A DNA stretch of 24,790 nucleotides from positions 1 through 24,790 of IMG/VR virus record IMGVR_UViG_3300027686_000032, one strand, 5' to 3'. The DNA comes from a virus. Positions 3 to 21,428 of the stretch are shown here, one piece after another. Under the pieces are notes generated by a model that was given only the letters and a program-made list of their open reading frames with translations, ran no database searches and was not told the DNA's origin. A program made the position numbers and the translations under genes. Numbering within the stretch: position 1 is the stretch's first letter; every line of letters begins with the position of its first letter.

Positions 3-3000
3 AACGAGCTTGACCCAGAGACTCGATTTGCTATAGAGAACGCGCTAACGGTAGGCGAGGTTGTCCCCATCGGTAAACTGGCAGGCATGGCCAAGGGCGC
101 AGTAAGAAATGCTGGCGACAGGCGAATGATTAGTGACGCAGCTTCTGATGTCCCAGATGAAAGCTCATACCTGCCGCTGCAGGACCGGCTTGAAGAGATG
201 GGTGCTCGCCAGCTGGCTGTCGATGATGTCTCGCCTAAGCCAATCATGTTTAGGGATGTTGCACAGCCTGATCTTACTCCAGACCAGCTATCTAGGTCGT
301 TTAAAGACGGCGAGATAACCAACTACGGCAGGAATATTGCCCGGAAGCGAGCAGCAAAAGATATGGCAGGACAGACCTCCAAGGTCAAGAAGCTGTCTGA
401 AGTATTAGGTGACATGAACATCGAGGGCAAAGTTAGCATGGTTGCCACTCAGTCTGACAGGACTGGCATCAAAGACGGTGCAGGTCCGGGCTATCCTTTG
501 ATTGGTCGGCAGTATTCAGAGATGGCTAAGCTTTACCAAGACCAGTTTGGAGAGGCTCCTGTGCCTAGAATGCTGGACAAGAATGGTGAAATCACTGACT
601 ACCCTGTGTGGGCTGTTGATGCCAAAGGTACAGTAGCCAGCCTAAGAAACAATTTAAGAGAAGAGGGAACTATACTTGTCCCGATGATTGGCTCGCCAGG
701 ACAGCTTCGCACAAACAAAGAAGTATTTAAGAAGCTGAAGAAAGAATTTATGGCCGGCATTAAGGCCAACAAATTAGACGCAGATCAGGCTGACAAAATA
801 AACCTTAACCTAGAGGCGCTCACTGGAGACAAGATGGACATCAGAGATCCGTCATCTTGGATAGAGCTTGAGAAGACTTTTGATGGTCGTGGCGCATTGG
901 CTGACATTATGAGCGGAAAGACACCGCAGGCTATAGCTGCAGTCGGAGCAAGAAGTAAATGGCGCACTAAACTCAATAAGAAGCGAGCTGCTGATGGGCT
1001 TGAGCCTCTTGATCTAAACCCAAAGACGGCTCCTTTAGGAGCGCGTAAAGGCCAGATATTTGACTACGACAAGATATTAGAGGACTCCACAGAGTCTGTA
1101 CTCTTGGGCGCTGGAACTTTTGACATTGGCCCTTCACTAATTCTACCTTCTCGGTATAGGCAAAGTGAAACTATGCGTGATGCTCATCCTGGCTTTAAAG
1201 AGCAGTTGATGGGAGAGCTGGCATCTGATGATATTTTCACGCCCGTTCCGCTTGAGGCTGCAATGCCAAGCTTTATTGATCATGGCCGAGGTCTTCACAT
1301 GAGAGCCGGGCCTAACAAAAGGCCATTTAATTCAAGCGCCTGGGGAATGAATGCGCGTATGGGATACCCCGGCCAAGGTCTTCCAAGCCAGAAGATAGAC
1401 GAAGATTACCTAAAGTACCTGCAGGACATGGGCTTTGCCGAAGGCGGTGAGGTTGAGGTAGCTGAAGAGGTTAGCGTTGAGTACAACGCTGACAAGATCA
1501 GTGCTATGGCTGACGCGCTAATGAACGGAGATAGCTACGCCGAGGGCGGTGAGGTTAAGAAGCAGGCAACCAGAGATGACACGATTGGTTACAACGCGCC
1601 TAATTTACGCCGGGTAGCTGGCGATGTTCTTACAGACTTTGCGTCTGGCATATTCGGACCCATCGCATCATCTGCTATTTCTTTAGGCGAGCAAGCCTTT
1701 ACCGATAACACCATTGAAGAAATGATGGCTAACAATGAGGCTTACAATGATGCCCTTAACTTCAATCCCAGGACAAAAGAAGCTCAAGCTGTTAATAAAT
1801 CAGCTATGCAAGGTCTAGGCGCTGTCGTTAACGAGGGCATTGAATACTATGACCGAAACAAAAAGAATCTATCGCCTGAAGTTAGGCAATCCATAGCAGC
1901 AACCGGGCAGGCGTGGGAAGACTTAGATCCTCGCACGAAGTTTCTTATAGGAAATGCTGCCACAGTTGGCGAAGTATTGCCCATTGGTGGCGCGGTAAAG
2001 GCTGGCCTTAGAGTAGGAAGGAATGCAGTAGATCAAAGAAACTTAAACGCTGCTGCAGGGCAAGTACCCAGTGAAGCTTCTTACGAACCTTTACAGGATA
2101 GGCTAGAAGAAATGGGCGCAAGGCAGCTACAAGTTAGAGAGCCGGGCGATAATAACTTCTTGAATGAGTATGATAGTGATGTTCTTGGACTTGGTCCTGA
2201 AAGATTAATGTCACCCATTTCTACACCACAGACTGTTTCAAATAGATTAAATATTAAACTTACTGATGATGATATTGATGACCTTACCGATGATGAACTA
2301 AATAAGGCTAATGATGTTGTTGATTTGACTGAGAGAAGATATCCCGGATCAACGATAACTAACCGATGGCTTAACACTAAGCTAAAGAAGTATCTACAGA
2401 ATGAACTAGGCACAGGCCAAAACGATTCTATTGTTAGAGTAGCAGGTGACGCAGATAACATGCACTATGAAGTAACTGACTATACTTTAGGTATAGGCGA
2501 TCTTGATGAGCAGATAAATCTTGGCCAGTACAATGTTGAGGAGTATGGTCTGGAATATGATCCAAACATGATTAGGCTTGATTCGGAGTCAGACTTAGCT
2601 AAGTCATTTGAAGGAGCTTCGGATAAGTTATTAGACCAGCAGCAGGCTGGGACTATTAGAAAATCAGGATTAATTAAAAGAAGAATGGAAAATCGAGTGA
2701 GAAATTTGAATCGTAGAAAAGATTCAGAAGCCAGCCTAGAAAGTTTAATGGATGAAATGTATGAAGCCAATCCTTTCTTAAACAAGGTGCCTCCTGAAAC
2801 CAATATGTTTACTCTTAATGAAGACATTGCAGAAGAGTTACAGCTAGAGGTGCTTACTGAAGGTGTGCGTGAGTTGGTCGATCCAACGAATGAATTAGGC
2901 TTACCTCCAGAGCTGTACTTACCCGGAGATAAGATTTTAAAGATGTCAGTTGGAGAGGTCTCTGCCAGAGTTGGCGATCTTCGCCTTTGGAAAGAAAAAG

Positions 3001-3866
3001 AGATGACTAAGGGTTTTATAGAGTTAGCTCAGAAATCGCCCCGTATGATAGTCGATGGATTTGATATTGATTTTGCTAAAGAAAAAGGTGCTACTTGGGT
3101 AGACATACCTGACGCTTCATCAAGCAAGCAAAATAAAAAGATTTGCACATCATTAGGCAAGGGAGGAGAGTGGTGTACAAAGATTGAAAAACAAGCGCTT
3201 AATTACGGATCTGGAAACAGCAGTCTTACTGTAATGCTTGACGGAGATGGAAGACCTCATCTTCAAGTACAGTTCATTGCCAATTATAAAAATCAAAATG
3301 GCGATGATATCATTGATATTAAAGAGATAAAGCCACCGGGCAATGAGTTTGATCATCAAAAGTCAGCGTCTTACATTAGACAAGATCCTTTGTACGAAAC
3401 AAAACTAGCTGATGAGGTAATAAATTTTTTAAACAAAGTAGATAATGAAATGATAGTGGGTAATATTAATCCTGACGAACTAGAACTGTTCGGACTTGTT
3501 GACGTTGATGACACTATGAATTTTGAGGAAATATTAGATCAAAAGTATGGCGCTAGAGATGGGCTTGACATGGACGAGGTGCGGGATATTTATAATGTTT
3601 ACATGTCTAAAAGACAATTTAGCCCAGAAAAAACACCTAGAATTGTGCGTGAAGAGCAAATAATGGACTACATGGATTCAGGCGTATCTGATCTTGACCG
3701 TAGTGATTTTGCCAAAGGCGGTGCAGTTATCGCTAAATATGACGCAGATAAGATAAATAAACTTGCACAGGGTATAATGCCTGAGAACTTTGCTGAAGGC
3801 GGTCCAGTAATTTATAACGCTAGTCGAATTAATGAAATTGCCAACCAACTACTACAGGAGGCTTAA
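3..3866 (+). CDS. Giant modular phage protein, 3' part (possible polyvalent or ejected protein)
   Basis: The frame is open from base 3, so the gene begins upstream; the ATG at 87 is internal. At least 1287 codons are visible. Two units are seen. Each starts with a 70-aa block ending in PLQDRLEEMGARQL (6-215 and 1920-2129), continues with an unrelated central domain, and ends with [FY]A[EK]GGxV tags and a short helix (1434-1556 and 3708-3851). Central domain 1 has a SDRTGIKDGAGPGYP stretch that recalls domains of large phage polyvalent proteins. Central domain 2 has a WCTK motif near 3171 followed by a YGSG and GRPHLQVQF stretch, resembling a domain I have seen in other large phage proteins but cannot name. 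The last codons overlap the portal ribosome site. An upstream position next to the portal fits a virion-internal or co-injected protein. The function is unknown; the modular layout is certain. Confidence 0.85.
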   Translation, partial: NELDPETRFAIENALTVGEVVPIGKLAGMAKGAVRNAGDRRMISDAASDVPDESSYLPLQDRLEEMGARQLAVDDVSPKPIMFRDVAQPDLTPDQLSRSFKDGEITNYGRNIARKRAAKDMAGQTSKVKKLSEVLGDMNIEGKVSMVATQSDRTGIKDGAGPGYPLIGRQYSEMAKLYQDQFGEAPVPRMLDKNGEITDYPVWAVDAKGTVASLRNNLREEGTILVPMIGSPGQLRTNKEVFKKLKKEFMAGIKANKLDADQADKINLNLEALTGDKMDIRDPSSWIELEKTFDGRGALADIMSGKTPQAIAAVGARSKWRTKLNKKRAADGLEPLDLNPKTAPLGARKGQIFDYDKILEDSTESVLLGAGTFDIGPSLILPSRYRQSETMRDAHPGFKEQLMGELASDDIFTPVPLEAAMPSFIDHGRGLHMRAGPNKRPFNSSAWGMNARMGYPGQGLPSQKIDEDYLKYLQDMGFAEGGEVEVAEEVSVEYNADKISAMADALMNGDSYAEGGEVKKQATRDDTIGYNAPNLRRVAGDVLTDFASGIFGPIASSAISLGEQAFTDNTIEEMMANNEAYNDALNFNPRTKEAQAVNKSAMQGLGAVVNEGIEYYDRNKKNLSPEVRQSIAATGQAWEDLDPRTKFLIGNAATVGEVLPIGGAVKAGLRVGRNAVDQRNLNAAAGQVPSEASYEPLQDRLEEMGARQLQVREPGDNNFLNEYDSDVLGLGPERLMSPISTPQTVSNRLNIKLTDDDIDDLTDDELNKANDVVDLTERRYPGSTITNRWLNTKLKKYLQNELGTGQNDSIVRVAGDADNMHYEVTDYTLGIGDLDEQINLGQYNVEEYGLEYDPNMIRLDSESDLAKSFEGASDKLLDQQQAGTIRKSGLIKRRMENRVRNLNRRKDSEASLESLMDEMYEANPFLNKVPPETNMFTLNEDIAEELQLEVLTEGVRELVDPTNELGLPPELYLPGDKILKMSVGEVSARVGDLRLWKEKEMTKGFIELAQKSPRMIVDGFDIDFAKEKGATWVDIPDASSSKQNKKICTSLGKGGEWCTKIEKQALNYGSGNSSLTVMLDGDGRPHLQVQFIANYKNQNGDDIIDIKEIKPPGNEFDHQKSASYIRQDPLYETKLADEVINFLNKVDNEMIVGNINPDELELFGLVDVDDTMNFEEILDQKYGARDGLDMDEVRDIYNVYMSKRQFSPEKTPRIVREEQIMDYMDSGVSDLDRSDFAKGGAVIAKYDADKINKLAQGIMPENFAEGGPVIYNASRINEIANQLLQEA
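6..215 (+). repeat. Intragenic protein-level repeat, copy A
   Basis: Seventy codons that align without gaps to 1920-2129, with 42 of 70 residues identical by hand count. The most conserved parts are TVGEVxPIG and the final 14 residues PLQDRLEEMGARQL. Synonymous positions have diverged strongly, so the peptide rather than the DNA is being kept. It introduces central domain 1 of the giant protein. Confidence 0.9.
1434..1556 (+). repeat. AxGGxV tag pair closing unit 1 of the giant protein
   Basis: The tag FAEGGEV (1434-1454) is followed nine residues later by the helix-like YNADKISAMADAL (1482-1520), then by a second tag YAEGGEV (1536-1556). The same order, tag then Y[ND]A[DS][KR]I helix, occurs at the C-terminus of the protein (3708-3851), where unit 2 ends. 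Confidence 0.85.
1920..2129 (+). repeat. Intragenic protein-level repeat, copy B
   Basis: Second copy of the 70-codon block at 6-215. Its surroundings are about 50% G+C (hand counts of 30 of 60 at 1981-2040 and 31 of 60 at 2101-2160). Base composition falls abruptly just after it, to 17 of 60 at 2221-2280, as if central domain 2 had been placed behind a conserved leader. Confidence 0.9.
3708..3851 (+). repeat. AxGGxV tag and helix units closing the giant protein
   Basis: Two successive units: FAKGGAV (3708-3728) with YDADKINKLAQGI (3738-3776), then FAEGGPV (3789-3809) with YNASRINEIANQL (3813-3851). The spacers between tag and helix are three and one residues, against nine in the 1434 copy. 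The last unit lies 15 bases before the stop codon, so it forms the extreme C-terminus. Confidence 0.85.
3856..3861 (+). promoter_or_regulatory. Ribosome binding site fixing the portal GTG start
   Basis: AGGAGG lies six bases before GTG at 3868 and inside the last codons of the preceding gene. The in-frame ATG at 3832 has no comparable site at the right distance, so GTG is preferred. Start and upstream stop (3864-3866) are adjacent, which suggests translational coupling. Confidence 0.85.
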
Positions 3867-3867
3867 C

Positions 3868-6465
3868 GTGGCTGAAGAGAACGAGATTGAGATTGAAGTA
3901 GAAGAAGTTACAATGGTAGAGCTTCCAGAAGAAGATGAGCTAGAGTTTGAGGACACCGAAGACGGTGGAGCGATGGTACGCATGGAGACTATGTCTGTGC
4001 GAGAGGCTTCTGATCACTTTGAGAACATTGTGGAAGAGGTTGACCCTATCCTGTTAAAGTCTGCCATCAACGACCTGATGGAGAAGATAGAGCGCGACAA
4101 AGAAGCTCGCCAGAAGCGAGATCTGCAGTACGAAGAAGGTTTGCGCCGCACAGGTTTAGGCGATGACGCACCGGGAGGTGCCCAGTTTCAGGGAGCCAAC
4201 AAGGTTGTGCATCCTATGCTGGTCGAGGCGTGTGTTGATTTCTCTGCTCGATTCATCAAAGAGATATTCCCGCCCACAGGTCCAGTTAAGTCTAAGATTA
4301 TAGGCGAGGCCGACAGGGCGAAGGTAGGCAAGGCTCAGCGTAAGACTGAGTTTATGAACTGGCAGACTACAGAACAGATGGTCGAGTTTCGCTCAGAGTT
4401 AGAACAGTTAAGCACGCAGCTACCTTTGGGTGGCGGTCAGTACATGAAGTTCATGTGGAACGCTCGATTTATGCGCCCTGTGTCTGAGTTCGTTCCCATT
4501 GATGACATATACCTTCCCTTCTCAGCTACAAACTTCTACACCGCAGAACGTAAGACTCACGTTCAGTACGTCACGCAGATGGAATATGAGAAGCGCGTTG
4601 AGTCTGGAATGTACGCGGACATTGAATTACCCACGCCTACTGAGCCAGAGTATAGCGCAGCTGAACGTGCCAACGAGAAAATCGAGGGCAAGCAGAATAC
4701 TAGCTACAACGAAGATGGTCTGCGAACCATCTTTGAGATCTACACGTTCATGGACTTTGAAGATGGCGAAGGTTTAGCGCCTTACATCTTGAGCGTGGAC
4801 AAGTCTTCAGATAAAGCCTTGTGCCTTTACAGGAACTGGGAAGAAGATGACTCAAGGAAGAATGAACTGCATTGGATCGTAGAGTTCCCATTCGTACCGT
4901 GGCGTGGTGCTTACCCAATCGGCCTGACTCATATGATTGGTGGCCTTAGTGGAGCAGCGACTGGCGCATTACGAGCCCTACTAGACTCAGCTTACATTCA
5001 GAACGTGCCAACACTACTGAAGCTAAAGGGTGGCCCAGGCGGCCAGACCTTAAATGTTCAGCCTACTGAGATTGTTGAAATGGAAGGCGGCGCGTTGATT
5101 GATGACGTTCGCAAGCTGGCCATGCCGCTACCATTTGCTGGCCCAAGTCCAACATTGTTTCAGCTGTTAGGATTCCTAGTTGATGCAGGCAAGGGCGTGG
5201 TCCAGACTTCCTTTGAGAAGTTTAACGACCAAAACCCAAATGCCCCAGTGGGAACCACGATGGCAATCATCGAGCAGGGCATGGTTGTGTTTAGCTCAAT
5301 CCATTCTCGCTTACATTCCTCTATGGCTCGCAGTTTTAATATCCTTCATCGCATCAACAGCATGTACTACACTCAGGAAGAGCTAGATGCGCTGGACGCT
5401 GGGCTAGAGATCACTGCAGAAGACTTTGATGGCCCATCTGATGTTGTGCCGATCAGTAACCCAGCTATCTTTAGTGAGGCTCAGCGCTTCGCACAGATAC
5501 AAGCGATTATGGCGCGTGCTGAAAAATTTCCGCAAATGTACGACCAAAAAGCGGTTGAAGAAATGTTTCTGCGAACGCTAAAGGTTCCAGCTTCAGAAGT
5601 TATGCAAAAGCAAGCAGGCTCAGAAGATAGAGATCCAGTAAGCGAAAACGTAGCGGCAGCAATGAATCAAGGAATTTACGTGCTGCCTCAGCAAGATCAC
5701 TTGGCTCACCTGCAAGTTCACTTGCCGTTCTTAAAGTCGCCAATGTTTGGGTCAAGCCCTGGCATTATGAGCACATTCTTTTATCCAATGGCCATGCACA
5801 TGCGTGATCATCTATTGAACTACTACTTAGTGGAGTCTCATAACGCTATTGAACAGGCGCAGACTCAACAGTTGATACCTGAAGAGGCAGAGCAGCAGGT
5901 CGATGTAATCCTCAAGGTCCAGCAGTTTATTGAAGAACAGTTAGGTGGATTCGCTCAAGAACTGGTTCAGATTAATCAGCAAGCAGAGCAATTCAAGCCA
6001 GAGAATCAGCCTCAACAGCCTGGCGATGCAATGAAGATTGCAGAACTTAGTGCTCAAATTAAGCAGAGCGAACTTCAGCAGCGCACAGAGCGTGATGGAG
6101 CCCGAATACAGCTTGATAACGCTAAAATGCAGGCATCTAACGAGATTGCACAGCTTAAAATGCAGCAGACTGCTGAAATTGAACGCGCCAAGCTCGCAGC
6201 TAGTCAACAAGATCGTGAAGAAAGGTCAGAAATTGCTGGATTGCGTGAACTTTCTGCTACAGAGCGCAACAACATCAGTGAAATGTCTGAAACTGACCGC
6301 TTAAATACCCGTGAACAAGGCGAAAATAAGCGTAAGGCAGAAGATTTAGCTGCTAGAGAGCGAATGAACAGTTCCGATAACATGACCGCCAAAGAACTAG
6401 CGGCTATGGAGATGGAATCAGGCGAGAAAACTTCATACACCAGCGGTGGGGGAATTGATCCATAA
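3868..6465 (+). CDS. Portal protein, large podovirus type
   Basis: The 865-residue portal forms the dodecameric ring at one capsid vertex through which DNA is packaged and ejected. After an acidic N-terminus, the core includes QFQGANKVVHPMLVEA, a KEIFPPTGPVKSKI stretch and the LPLGGGQYMKF region, all typical of portals of P22-like or larger size; T7-type portals are much shorter at about 540 residues. From about residue 690 the protein becomes Gln/Glu/Ala-rich and strongly helical (EIAQLKMQQTAEIERAKLAASQ), which fits a long C-terminal barrel or coiled coil as in P22. It starts at GTG behind a perfect AGGAGG and overlaps the next gene by one base. The terminase is not in the window and is presumably upstream. 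The portal call is strong; the exact subfamily is not. Confidence 0.92.
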   Translation: MAEENEIEIEVEEVTMVELPEEDELEFEDTEDGGAMVRMETMSVREASDHFENIVEEVDPILLKSAINDLMEKIERDKEARQKRDLQYEEGLRRTGLGDDAPGGAQFQGANKVVHPMLVEACVDFSARFIKEIFPPTGPVKSKIIGEADRAKVGKAQRKTEFMNWQTTEQMVEFRSELEQLSTQLPLGGGQYMKFMWNARFMRPVSEFVPIDDIYLPFSATNFYTAERKTHVQYVTQMEYEKRVESGMYADIELPTPTEPEYSAAERANEKIEGKQNTSYNEDGLRTIFEIYTFMDFEDGEGLAPYILSVDKSSDKALCLYRNWEEDDSRKNELHWIVEFPFVPWRGAYPIGLTHMIGGLSGAATGALRALLDSAYIQNVPTLLKLKGGPGGQTLNVQPTEIVEMEGGALIDDVRKLAMPLPFAGPSPTLFQLLGFLVDAGKGVVQTSFEKFNDQNPNAPVGTTMAIIEQGMVVFSSIHSRLHSSMARSFNILHRINSMYYTQEELDALDAGLEITAEDFDGPSDVVPISNPAIFSEAQRFAQIQAIMARAEKFPQMYDQKAVEEMFLRTLKVPASEVMQKQAGSEDRDPVSENVAAAMNQGIYVLPQQDHLAHLQVHLPFLKSPMFGSSPGIMSTFFYPMAMHMRDHLLNYYLVESHNAIEQAQTQQLIPEEAEQQVDVILKVQQFIEEQLGGFAQELVQINQQAEQFKPENQPQQPGDAMKIAELSAQIKQSELQQRTERDGARIQLDNAKMQASNEIAQLKMQQTAEIERAKLAASQQDREERSEIAGLRELSATERNNISEMSETDRLNTREQGENKRKAEDLAARERMNSSDNMTAKELAAMEMESGEKTSYTSGGGIDP

Positions 6466-7160
6466 TGGCATTCTTGCAAAGCAACATACCGCACTTTAAG
6501 TGCTGGGTCAGGAAAGAATACACTCACAATCATGAGAAGTTTCATGGCGAGTGGATTCATGCGATGGCCGTAGCTGTTACGACTTTACCGAATCGCTGTT
6601 TAAGCTTCCAGATGATATTTACTGGGGCTGAAACTTATGACACAGATGAATCTAATGTTCACGGAGGAGCAATGTGGGCAAGAATGCCCATAACTGCTCT
6701 AATGGGGGACACTCCAGTTGACGAGTGGCCAGAGCCAATGTCTACACATGACGCCCAGCCTTGGGATTGTGCATCTCACACTCACAGCGTCTATGTTCTA
6801 GACCGATGTACGCCAGCCCCTTGGCTGGCAAAGATTGACGGGAAGTTTTATCCTGCCAAATACTATTTTACGGTGGACTATACCGATTCAGAAGTAGCAG
6901 ACGATCCAGCTCAACATAAGCAGGCGCACGTTCTAGAACTTCTTGATGCAGGAAAATGGACGGGTAACATAGTAGCGTTACCGAATAATCGGGTCCGGGT
7001 AAGTCACCCAGCTTGGTTTGAATTGGGAGAAGGCGCTCCTGATTTCAGGCCGTCCCAGCATATCCACTACAGCAAGTCTGATCTGGATTATACGCTGGAC
7101 GTTAACCAAGTTTTTGATAACATTTATGCAGCAGAGGAAGAAGAAAATGATGAAAAGTAA
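6465..7160 (+). CDS. Conserved phage hypothetical protein, 231 aa
   Basis: ATG overlaps the portal stop (TAATG), so the two are translationally coupled. The protein is rich in Trp, His and Pro, with conspicuous stretches FLQSNIPHFKCWVRKEYTHN near the start, NVHGGAMWARMPITALMGDTP around residue 65, DGKFYPAKYYFTVDY around residue 126 and LPNNRVRVSHPAWF around residue 175. It has no signal peptide or membrane segment. I have the impression of a compact conserved protein seen next to portals in marine podoviruses, with no assigned function. A role in head assembly or as a minor virion protein is inferred only from position. The acidic tail EEEENDEK overlaps the start of the next gene. Confidence 0.85.
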   Translation: MAFLQSNIPHFKCWVRKEYTHNHEKFHGEWIHAMAVAVTTLPNRCLSFQMIFTGAETYDTDESNVHGGAMWARMPITALMGDTPVDEWPEPMSTHDAQPWDCASHTHSVYVLDRCTPAPWLAKIDGKFYPAKYYFTVDYTDSEVADDPAQHKQAHVLELLDAGKWTGNIVALPNNRVRVSHPAWFELGEGAPDFRPSQHIHYSKSDLDYTLDVNQVFDNIYAAEEEENDEK

Positions 7161-7320
7161 AGGTTACGCCAAAGGCGGTAAAACCAAAGGCGGTAAAATG
7201 AAAACTAAAGGCTACGCTAAGGGCGGTGCAGTCAATATGGACTCAGATCAAGTAAGACAGCACAAGCGCATGGCCGCTGGATACATGATTAAAACAGGTT
7301 CTGGTAACACGCCCGCATAA
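7147..7320 (+). CDS. Small Lys/Gly-rich protein with KGYAKGG tags
   Basis: A 57-aa protein starting at the double ATG 7147/7150, behind GAGGAAG inside the end of the preceding gene (14-base overlap). The frame is open further upstream to 7018, but that part is only a shadow of the 231-aa gene. It has a basic head with KGYAKGG repeated twice and a KGGK spacer, then a short tail MDSDQVRQHKRMAAGYMIKTG. The same head, MKSKGYAKGG..MKTKGY, opens the protein at 13060 with different codons. The YAKGG core also matches the AEGG/AKGG tags of the giant protein upstream. The function is unknown; a DNA-binding or virion-packaged peptide is a guess from charge and context. Confidence 0.8.
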   Translation: MMKSKGYAKGGKTKGGKMKTKGYAKGGAVNMDSDQVRQHKRMAAGYMIKTGSGNTPA

Positions 7321-7519: not shown

Positions 7520-7716
7520 TGAATATAGACTCAAAGTTACTAAATATTCTCAAGGCTAATCAAGCAGAGTTTGCGCTTGAAGCCTTGCAGAAGCCACACA
7601 AGAACGATGCTTTTGAGTACGGGTATCGGGTAGGAACGGTTGCAGGTTACGAGGCATCCATTAATGTACTTTTAAATCTATTAGACGAGGAAAGAAATAA
7701 TGACCACGACTTATGA
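7519..7716 (+). CDS. Small hypothetical protein, 65 aa
   Basis: ATG overlaps the preceding stop by one base, and the gene runs 17 bases into the next gene, so it sits in a coupled run of four small genes. The sequence ILKANQAEFALEALQKPHKNDAFEYGYRVG followed by a Leu-rich helix is probably all helical. I have no functional family for it. The spacing and overlap on both sides are the main support that it is real. Confidence 0.75.
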   Translation: MNIDSKLLNILKANQAEFALEALQKPHKNDAFEYGYRVGTVAGYEASINVLLNLLDEERNNDHDL

Positions 7717-8116
7717 GGACGCAATCGCGGAGGCTTTTCCAGAAGTTTGTTCTGGCATTCAGCCTTTCGGTAGCCGCGTTCTGGTTCAGATACGCACCGC
7801 TAAGAATAAAACAGCTGGGGGCATTTTACTAACTACGGACACCACTGACACTGAGAAGTGGAATACGCAGGTAGCCAAAGTTGTCACAGTTGGGCCATTA
7901 GCTTTTAAAAATCGTAATACGATGGAAAGCTGGCCAGAAGGAAACTGGTGTAAGGAAGGTGAGTTTGTGAGAGTTGCTAAGTACGGAGGAGACCGATGGG
8001 AAGTACCTATTCCTGACGCAACCAATGGCGAAGCAGCAATGTTTGTAATTTTTAATGATCTTGACATTTTGGGTAGCGTAATTGGCGATCCCCTTAAAGT
8101 TAAGGCATTCATCTGA
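7700..8116 (+). CDS. GroES-like co-chaperonin (phage Cpn10)
   Basis: A 138-aa protein with the Cpn10 pattern in order. PFGSRVLVQ (residues 22-30) is the first strand. NKTAGGILLTTDTT (36-49) matches the mobile loop with its GroEL-binding Ile-Leu-Leu. VAKVVTVGP (58-66) comes next, then KEGEFVRVAKYGG (85-97) and FVIFNDLDILGSV (115-127), corresponding to the GroES SESDILAIV end. It is longer than bacterial GroES (97 aa) because of a 20-residue N-terminal extension and an insert near residues 67-84. Phage co-chaperonins such as T4 gp31 replace GroES in host GroEL complexes to fold capsid protein. Location just before the scaffold and capsid genes agrees. No GroEL-like gene is visible, so host GroEL is the likely partner. 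Confidence 0.82.
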   Translation: MTTTYEDAIAEAFPEVCSGIQPFGSRVLVQIRTAKNKTAGGILLTTDTTDTEKWNTQVAKVVTVGPLAFKNRNTMESWPEGNWCKEGEFVRVAKYGGDRWEVPIPDATNGEAAMFVIFNDLDILGSVIGDPLKVKAFI

Positions 8117-13059: not shown

Positions 13060-13356
13060 ATGGGTATGAAATCAAAAGGCTATGCAAAAGGCGGTATGAA
13101 AACTAAGGGTTATTCCAAGGGTGGTAAAACTCAAGGTTATAACGCTCGTTTAGATGATTCGATGGGTTCTAGGAATGGCTCAAAAAGTCAGTCTATGAAG
13201 TCTCGCCGGAATGAAAGCGAAGGTATGGAAAAATCCATGGGTAAGCGTAAGTTTTCTGGCAATAAAATGATGGACGTAGGATCTTCTAAAGGCGCTGTAG
13301 GTTCAGCAGAGATGAAAGAATTTAAGAAAATGGGCACCATGAAGAACAGCTGGTAG
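13060..13356 (+). CDS. Small basic protein with KGYAKGG tags, 98 aa
   Basis: It starts behind AAGGA 12 bases after the previous stop. The head MKSKGYAKGG..MKTKGYSKGG..QGY almost repeats the opening of the 57-aa protein at 7147 but in different codons. The remainder is Ser/Lys/Met/Gly-rich and looks disordered (SMGSRNGSKSQSMKSRR, MGKRKFSGNKMM). No cysteine or membrane segment is present. The shared head suggests that both proteins go to the same place or bind the same partner. Function is unknown. Confidence 0.8.
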   Translation: MGMKSKGYAKGGMKTKGYSKGGKTQGYNARLDDSMGSRNGSKSQSMKSRRNESEGMEKSMGKRKFSGNKMMDVGSSKGAVGSAEMKEFKKMGTMKNSW

Positions 13357-13425: not shown

Positions 13426-14436
13426 ATGGCTTATTCGGGAAACATTGGGGTTAAAACATTTAATGCGCTGAAAGTCGTAGACCACGCTTTCCGCAGGTGT
13501 CGCCTGCCTGCTCAGGCCATAACTTCAGAAATGCAAGAATATGCACTTGATTCTCTGACATTCATGCTCGATGAGCTGGCCAATATACGGACACCATCTT
13601 GGTGCATAGAGCAGCAAATACTGCCTCTTTACGAAAATAATCAAATTGTCAAGCTTCCAAAGGGCACAATTGACGTTTTAAACCTAAATTTAAACGTACT
13701 TCAAGAGCTAAGTGGCACTGTAACATCCACAAATACCTCTTATTTAGTTAATTTTACTACCTCCACAATAGTCAATTTCATTGGAATTAAATGGTCTGCG
13801 AACGCTATTCCAGTCAATTTTCAGACTAGTTCAGACAATGCTGCTTGGACTACGGTAGGAACTTCGACTAGTCTTGATTTATCAACCAATGCGACAGCGG
13901 TTGCTGGTAATATTACTTGGACTCAAATTAATGGCGCTTTAGCCAAGCAATACTTTAGAATCGTACCAACTGATGGTGCTTCTACTATCTCTTCCTCCCG
14001 AATTACGTTAGGAAATATGCCTCAAGCCATTCCTCTTGGCTTATTGAGTAGAGATAATTATGTAAACCAAAGCAATTTAGTATTTGCTGGACGCCCCAGT
14101 AGCTTCTACTACCAGCGTGATATTCCTCAGCCAGTTGTTAATTTATGGCCAGCGCCTAACGCTGCGTCTGAAAAGTTTCAATTAGTGCTCTGGCGTCACC
14201 GCCAAATAATGGATACCGACAACTTACAGCAAGAGATTGATATACCTAATCGGTGGTTAGAGGCTATAATCAATGGGTTAGCGGCTAGGGTATGCGCTGA
14301 AACACCCTCTGCAGATGCTCAACTTATGCCAATGCTCGATGCTAAAGCAACAATGAGTATGCAACGAGCTTGGGATGGCGATAATGATGGATCTGCAATT
14401 CAAATCAATCCAGGAATAGGGGTTTACACAGCGTGA
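13426..14436 (+). CDS. Head-to-tail adaptor, P22 gp4-like, with inserted F5/8C-like domain
   Basis: The 336-aa protein joins portal and nozzle after packaging. The N-terminal helical part (residues 10-92) has VVDHAFRRCRLPAQAITSEMQEYALDSL, FMLDELAN and VKLPKGTIDVLNL, typical of gp4-like adaptors. The C-terminal part resumes at about residue 200 with LSRDNYVNQ, FYYQRDIPQPVVNLWPAPN and IPNRWLEAIINGLAARVC. Between them about 105 residues (DNA about 13708-14022) form a beta domain with FIGIKWSANAIPVNFQTSSDN, WTTVG and ITWTQINGALAKQYFRI, the pattern of discoidin (F5/8 type C) carbohydrate-binding domains. The start lacks a strong ribosome site. The core call is firm; the insert family is likely but needs a structure check. 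Confidence 0.87.
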   Translation: MAYSGNIGVKTFNALKVVDHAFRRCRLPAQAITSEMQEYALDSLTFMLDELANIRTPSWCIEQQILPLYENNQIVKLPKGTIDVLNLNLNVLQELSGTVTSTNTSYLVNFTTSTIVNFIGIKWSANAIPVNFQTSSDNAAWTTVGTSTSLDLSTNATAVAGNITWTQINGALAKQYFRIVPTDGASTISSSRITLGNMPQAIPLGLLSRDNYVNQSNLVFAGRPSSFYYQRDIPQPVVNLWPAPNAASEKFQLVLWRHRQIMDTDNLQQEIDIPNRWLEAIINGLAARVCAETPSADAQLMPMLDAKATMSMQRAWDGDNDGSAIQINPGIGVYTA

Positions 14437-20795: not shown

Positions 20796-21428
20796 ATGAG
20801 CTACACGATGACCTACGACAGCCTGTTGGTGGACCTTCGCAGATATTTAGAGCGAGGGTTTACTCAGGATAGCGATCAAATAGTGTTTGATCAACTCCCA
20901 CGTTTAATTACCTTGGGAGAGAGGCGTATTGCGCGTGAGCTTAAAATAGAAGGATTCATCCGGGCAGTTAATCTACCGCTGGCGATTGGAGTATCAACGT
21001 ATTTAAAGCCTGACAGATGGCGCGACACTATATCGATGAATGTTTCTGGAAAGTCTATATTTGCGCGATCTTACGAATACTGCCGCAACTATTGGACAAA
21101 CGAATCTGAGACTGCCACGCCTGAATTTTATGCAGATTACGACTATCAGCATTGGCTAATAGTTCCGACTCCTAATGCTGCAAGCACAATGGAAATACTT
21201 TATTACGAGCAGCCAGCTCTTTTGGGAGATGATTTCCAAAGTAATTGGCTGACAGAATATGCGCCTGATGTTCTATTATATGCCGCACTTCTGGAAGCAG
21301 CTCCATTTTTAAAAAATGACGAACGAGTTGCTATGTGGACTGGAATGTATGATCGTGCAGCGCAGGCATTGAACGGCGAGGATCTAAGTAAGATTATGGA
21401 CAGATCAGCAAATAGGAGTGAAGCGTAA
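20796..21428 (+). CDS. Adaptor-like virion protein
   Basis: It starts one base after the holin stop with a weak site (GAGAGA). The 210 residues are mostly helical. The start YDSLLVDLRRYLERGFT and FDQLPRLITLGERRIARELKIEG (31-53), then YLKPDRWRDTI, and ILYYEQPALLGDDFQSNWLTEYAPDVLLYAALLEAAPFLKND (about 134-175) match the adaptor-like proteins of podoviruses (SU10-adaptor type). A Trp-Leu-Thr...Pro-Asp-x-Leu-Leu-Tyr stretch is diagnostic in my memory. With the gp4-like protein at 13426 there would be two adaptor-type layers between portal and nozzle. Confidence 0.75.
   Translation: MSYTMTYDSLLVDLRRYLERGFTQDSDQIVFDQLPRLITLGERRIARELKIEGFIRAVNLPLAIGVSTYLKPDRWRDTISMNVSGKSIFARSYEYCRNYWTNESETATPEFYADYDYQHWLIVPTPNAASTMEILYYEQPALLGDDFQSNWLTEYAPDVLLYAALLEAAPFLKNDERVAMWTGMYDRAAQALNGEDLSKIMDRSANRSEA

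Follow-up and report, generated by a model that had tools for sequence, protein, structure and literature searches.

The window, a stretch of 24,790 bp that constitutes a whole viral record, begins within a giant gene whose product is built of units. Each unit contains a conserved leader followed by a different central domain, and ends in short AxGG tags. In related phages, the gene is located between the genes for the large terminase and the portal protein, and its middle is exchanged as a cassette whose fixed borders coincide with the leader end and the tags. The product is probably a polyvalent effector protein of phages, in which exchangeable cargo domains are combined with a constant part for delivery.

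Gene position and leader

The gene is carried by a group of uncultured tailed phages. In relatives with the full-length gene, it encodes 1,129–1,882 residues and is flanked by the large terminase (TerL) and portal genes, a slot seen in contigs L004, L008, L013, and L084. The gene in the window runs off the left edge, as the preliminary description states, and because the record does not include its start, the start was taken from relatives. The form closest to the window is its near-twin L002, which encodes 1,491 residues in the order NT domain (~88 residues), tag, leader A (~180 residues), C1 domain, two tags, leader B, P2 domain, and two tags. Of this order, the window retains everything from the last part of leader A onwards (Table 1). 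The NT domain corresponds to phrog_7595, which is a free-standing protein of ~90–115 residues in most other phages found. In the window, the portal gene opens with a GTG codon one base past the stop of the giant gene, and the same spacing occurs in seven of the eight contigs examined. The cultured relatives Caulobacter phage RW, CRP-902, and Pag-Yong1 are without a large slot gene, which is therefore dispensable in that lineage.

Table 1. Features of the giant gene and the adjoining portal gene in the window
Feature	Position	Strand	Evidence
Leader copy A, C-terminal end, cut by contig edge	3..227	+	profile A1, E 1.2e-39, model positions 115-189
C1 domain, function unknown, confident model, new or unassigned fold	228..1430	+	homologues and model
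AxGGxV tag FAEGGEV	1434..1454	+	motif scan
AxGGxV tag YAEGGEV	1536..1556	+	motif scan
Leader copy B, complete, ~190 residues	1569..2141	+	profile A1, E 6e-91; low-confidence helical model
PcfJ-like domain P2	2148..3707	+	family alignment vs PF14284; homology to DSL-LC04 protein
AxGGxV tag FAKGGAV; DNA homology to L039 restarts here	3708..3728	+	motif scan and DNA alignment
AxGGxV tag FAEGGPV; constant C-terminal end begins	3789..3809	+	motif scan
Portal gene, GTG start	3868..6465	+	tblastn, Caulobacter phage RW 48.6%, and annotated portal / head-to-tail connecting proteins

Several neighbouring genes of the window could be matched to known families. The open reading frame directly 3' of the portal gene (6465–7157) matches phrog_3704 (labelled ferredoxin, E = 2.5e-28). 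A GroES-like co-chaperonin (7700–8113; Pfam Cpn10, E = 1e-8) is encoded in the interval between the portal and capsid genes, and is likewise placed in Caulobacter phage RW, MW202545, HTVC027P, and DSL-LC04. The products of 13426–14433 and 20796–21425 both match the SU10 adaptor family (E = 6.5e-7 and 6.4e-28, respectively), an apparent duplication in which the copy at 13426–14433 has an extra central insert.

The two 70-codon blocks at 6–215 and 1920–2129, from which the unit structure had been recognised, were reproduced exactly by re-alignment, with 42 of 70 residues identical, 14 of them consecutive (PLQDRLEEMGARQL), and no gaps. In 10,000 shuffles of one of the blocks, the number of identities averaged 5.4 and never exceeded 16. 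The same blocks match at 115 of 210 nucleotides, and the codons differ for 30 of the 42 identical residues, which indicates that the leader copies are of old origin and that conservation acts on the protein. A correction to the earlier description is that the blocks form the final part of a mostly helical leader of about 180–190 residues, which in unit 2 begins near position 1569, as judged by homologues. A complete leader copy A is present in L002 and L004. The sequences following the two blocks had been called unrelated; BLASTP comparison of unit 1 with unit 2 identified the leader (E = 2e-20) and, as the sole other notable match, the AxGG tag region (E = 0.002).

In AlphaFold models of the leader with C1 and of the leader with P2, the leader is all-helical but of low confidence, with block means of 28–73, and this model does not establish the leader as a structurally independent block. 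In a tree of leaders, copy B of the window groups with copies B of L002–L004 (99/94) and with the copies of L019, separately from copies A; the deeper branches are long and unsure. A leader profile search of viral contigs identified 28 loci, to which two further searches added more, and several of the contigs are short fragments. No leader relatives were found outside these phages: the leader is absent from a collection of genomes from 85,462 species of bacteria and archaea, and a tblastn search with the leader, C1, P2, and module X against 50,697 phage records gave no match. Direct scans of the window protein against Pfam, PHROG, and NCBIfam returned nothing significant, and a literature search found no paper on the leader or the AxGG tag.

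Central domains and AxGG tags

At least six module sets follow the leader in different viral contigs, which provides the variety of downstream domains anticipated for swapping behind a constant leader. C1 follows the leader in the window, L002, L011, and L084, an ART-PolyVal-like domain together with C1 in L004–L006, and a methyltransferase together with C1 in L003 and L013–L015. The other sets are modules X and Z (L008, L016, L019), a zeta-toxin kinase (L040–L042, Pfam E-values down to 3e-15), a PcfJ-like domain (L017, L018, L020), and, in L039, an uncharacterised stretch of ~580 residues with Z. Neither C1 nor X matches a Pfam family. A provisional GNAT label for module Z was dropped; the sole family match of Z is phrog_2563, of unknown function. 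The ART-PolyVal match in L004 (E = 5e-4, 21.3 bits) is below the Pfam cut-off of 31.2, and the curated polyvalent domains exceed their cut-offs only in relatives that do not contain the leader, namely L050, which has a strong ART-PolyVal domain (E = 3.5e-35) in addition to C1 and a PcfJ-like domain, and L023, which has an LPD23 domain.

The C1 domain is 94–100% identical in eight other contigs and 25–58% identical in ~70 more. Its AlphaFold model, with pLDDT mostly 85–97, has no match in the PDB at E ≤ 0.001 and 15 matches among viral predicted structures, one of which is a 1,403-residue "PcfJ-like protein". A scan of the genome collection with C1 gave a single match, in a Methylomonas MAG contig. 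Many other contigs, among them L111, L127, L133, L145, and L150, contain C1 together with a PcfJ-like domain but no leader, and these domains can therefore be used without it. The two domains are paired independently in a 2,291-residue polyvalent protein (L050:6051–12923), which contains GNAT, PcfJ-like, ART-PolyVal, and C1 domains.

The P2 domain was identified through its family, as 18 of the 40 rows of the P2 family alignment match Pfam PcfJ (PF14284) with a best E-value of 2.7e-10, but the window sequence itself does not. P2 is homologous, via L020, to a protein of phage DSL-LC04 that is annotated as PcfJ-like (E = 1e-8), and in the tblastn search of the 50,697 phage records only the distant P2 relative L051 reached DSL-LC04. 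The confidence of the AlphaFold model of P2 is mostly 85–98, with a weak stretch near residue 320. A fold search gave weak matches to GNAT acetyltransferases, the best with an E-value of 0.004, with low TM-scores, which is a hint of a GNAT-like fold in the model and not an assignment.

The AxGG tags reported at the unit ends were located at residues 478, 512, 1236, and 1263. The motif [FYMKLWV]AxGGx[VIL] occurs 150 times in the 98,000 residues of proteins that contain the leader, C1, or P2, compared to about four times in shuffled sequences, and is carried by 79 of 98 such proteins versus 50 of 904 other open reading frames; the counts are not independent, because many of these proteins are homologous. 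The proteomes of lambda and T7 contain about one motif per 10,000 residues. Tags are also present in the slot proteins of MW202545 and HTVC027P, which have no meaningful similarity to the giant protein, and the DSL-LC04 slot protein contains three AxGGxV tags. Since the alanine and glycine codons of the tag vary, it is kept as protein, and conservation of the tags as sites of DNA recombination was rejected. Self-processing by a zincin metallopeptidase was rejected, because no HExxH motif was found in 14 giant proteins. The tag may serve as a signal for packaging, mark a processing site, or act as a linker. A broader role of AxGGxV, as a general signal by which the head-loaded proteins of these phages are addressed or processed, is conceivable but doubtful; the tags bracket every cargo and occur in non-homologous slot proteins of distant phages, which suggests such a reading.

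Similar motifs occur elsewhere in these genomes. Two small basic proteins encoded among the virion genes of the window (7018–7320 and 13060–13356) are rich in KGYAKGG and KGYSKGG repeats, and these GG repeats resemble the AxGG tags. Proteins with several AxGG tags are encoded close to the capsid genes (L028:15342–16697 and L023:11211–12497), and the scaffold-like acidic open reading frames of L141, L146, and L048 contain one AxGG tag each.

Exchange of cassettes at fixed borders

Among the closer phages, the TerL, portal, and major capsid proteins are 91–99% identical, and the middles of the giant proteins differ. Up to the leader end, the DNA of L002 and L039 is 97.6% identical; ~3.5 kb of unrelated sequence follows, and identity returns, at 97.5%, with the last tags and extends into the portal gene. 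The sole piece shared within the unrelated stretch is a short leader-to-leader match. The corresponding protein identities are 99% for the NT domain, 95% for the leader, and 99% for the portal. L002, L008, and L016 each lose homology to L013 at the same base, L013:3613, which is the end of the leader, and breakpoints at the leader end and the AxGGxV tags were found in several pairs of contigs. The C1 DNA of L002 and L013 is 91.1% identical, more than the 76.6% of the adjoining upstream DNA, which points to horizontal transfer of the cassette.

The proposed swapping of central domains thus stands with a restriction, as part of the layout is collinear. The order leader–C1–leader–P2 is common to the window type (including L002) and L084, in which C1 is only 58% identical to that of the window type and the portal 85%, and occurs with an added cassette in L003–L006. 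The shared order in L084, together with the leader-less pairing of C1 and PcfJ-like domains elsewhere, indicates that the layout is partly conserved and partly exchanged.

Proposed function and known systems

We place the giant protein with the phage polyvalent proteins because of its gene position and cargo. Polyvalent proteins were described in terminase–portal phages, which encode them next to virion genes, and their injection was predicted (Iyer et al. 2017, PMC5512222). They are similarly multi-domain and combine unrelated activities (ART-PolyVal, GNAT, methyltransferase, zeta-toxin kinase, LPD), and some of their domains are common to the relatives L050 and L023. Unrelated activities also occur across the family described here (ART-like, methyltransferase, zeta toxin, PcfJ-like), but the copy in the window has only C1 and the PcfJ-like domain. 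The suggested resemblance to toxin or polyvalent effector systems was upheld for the latter; a toxin is unsupported for the two domains of the window. The 2017 study found that polyvalent proteins do not follow a layout with a constant N-terminus, and the constant-leader layout, with a leader repeated within the protein, cargo swapped behind it, and fixed exchange borders, was not described among them (PMC5512222). Furthermore, zincin processing is a common, not universal, theme of polyvalent proteins, whereas here AxGG tags are located at the module borders of proteins without HExxH.

By analogy with polyvalent and ejection proteins, we infer that the protein is loaded into the head, processed at the tags, ejected, and active in the host. 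The constant part would comprise the ~88-residue NT domain, the ~180-residue helical leader, and the C-terminal AxGG tag repeats, and the cargo between these parts may be replaced by homologous recombination at the leader end and the tags. The protein most likely enters the head during assembly and then the host together with the DNA, where the targets of the cargo domains would be host or defence components. Repetition of the leader in the two-unit form may provide each cargo with a copy of its own. The PcfJ-like protein of DSL-LC04 occupies the same slot and has a homologous PcfJ-like domain and tags, but is a single unit without a recognisable leader and without C1. Head proteins of SPN3US and T4 are cut by the prohead protease, and AxE marks the protease sites of SPN3US (PMC10052503). 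They share with the giant protein a short motif repeated in packaged proteins, if the latter is indeed packaged, but AxGG differs from AxE, and no known protease acts on AxGG.

The location next to the portal gene, the helical leader, and its fusion to the NT domain, a small family common in phages, would also suit an internal virion structural or ejection protein such as T7 gp16 or the N4 virion RNA polymerase, with middles that aid assembly or DNA entry. We consider this rather unlikely, because the gene is dispensable, several cargo families are enzymes, and replacement of the whole middle between phages with 99% identical portals is ill-suited to a structural role. Many of the contigs are short metagenome fragments, in which assembly artefacts could have fused the leader to unrelated sequences; nevertheless, each of these layouts was recovered from more than one sample (L004/L005/L006, L008/L009/L010, and L013/L014/L015), the reading frames are open through the joins, and the joins are at the same place, which makes chimaeras extremely improbable.

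A constant part combined with variable effectors, including a zeta-toxin kinase and an ART-like domain, is likewise reminiscent of the virion-linked MuF polymorphic toxins of temperate phages, in which a structural N-terminus precedes swapped C-terminal toxins directed against competitors of the lysogen, with an immunity gene downstream. A small open reading frame is next downstream of 89% of MuF toxin genes (PMC5576092), but in seven of the contigs examined here the portal gene begins a single base beyond the stop, which leaves no room for it. Pfam scans of the giant proteins detected no MuF domain, the constant sequence is at both ends with the cargo in the middle, and the absence of the leader from the bacterial and archaeal collection gives no sign of prophages. 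A MuF-like toxin is therefore improbable, and a polyvalent effector remains the preferred reading.

The giant protein is a probable effector seen to exchange cargo, with sharp borders, between nearly identical phage genomes. Its middle domains look like an interchangeable kit of proteins that are sent into the host with the DNA. The cargo, including C1, X, and the PcfJ-like domain, is a source of candidate host-directed or anti-defence activities, and the constant parts are a candidate delivery module. If the AxGGxV tags do act as a general signal, they would represent a new packaging or maturation code.
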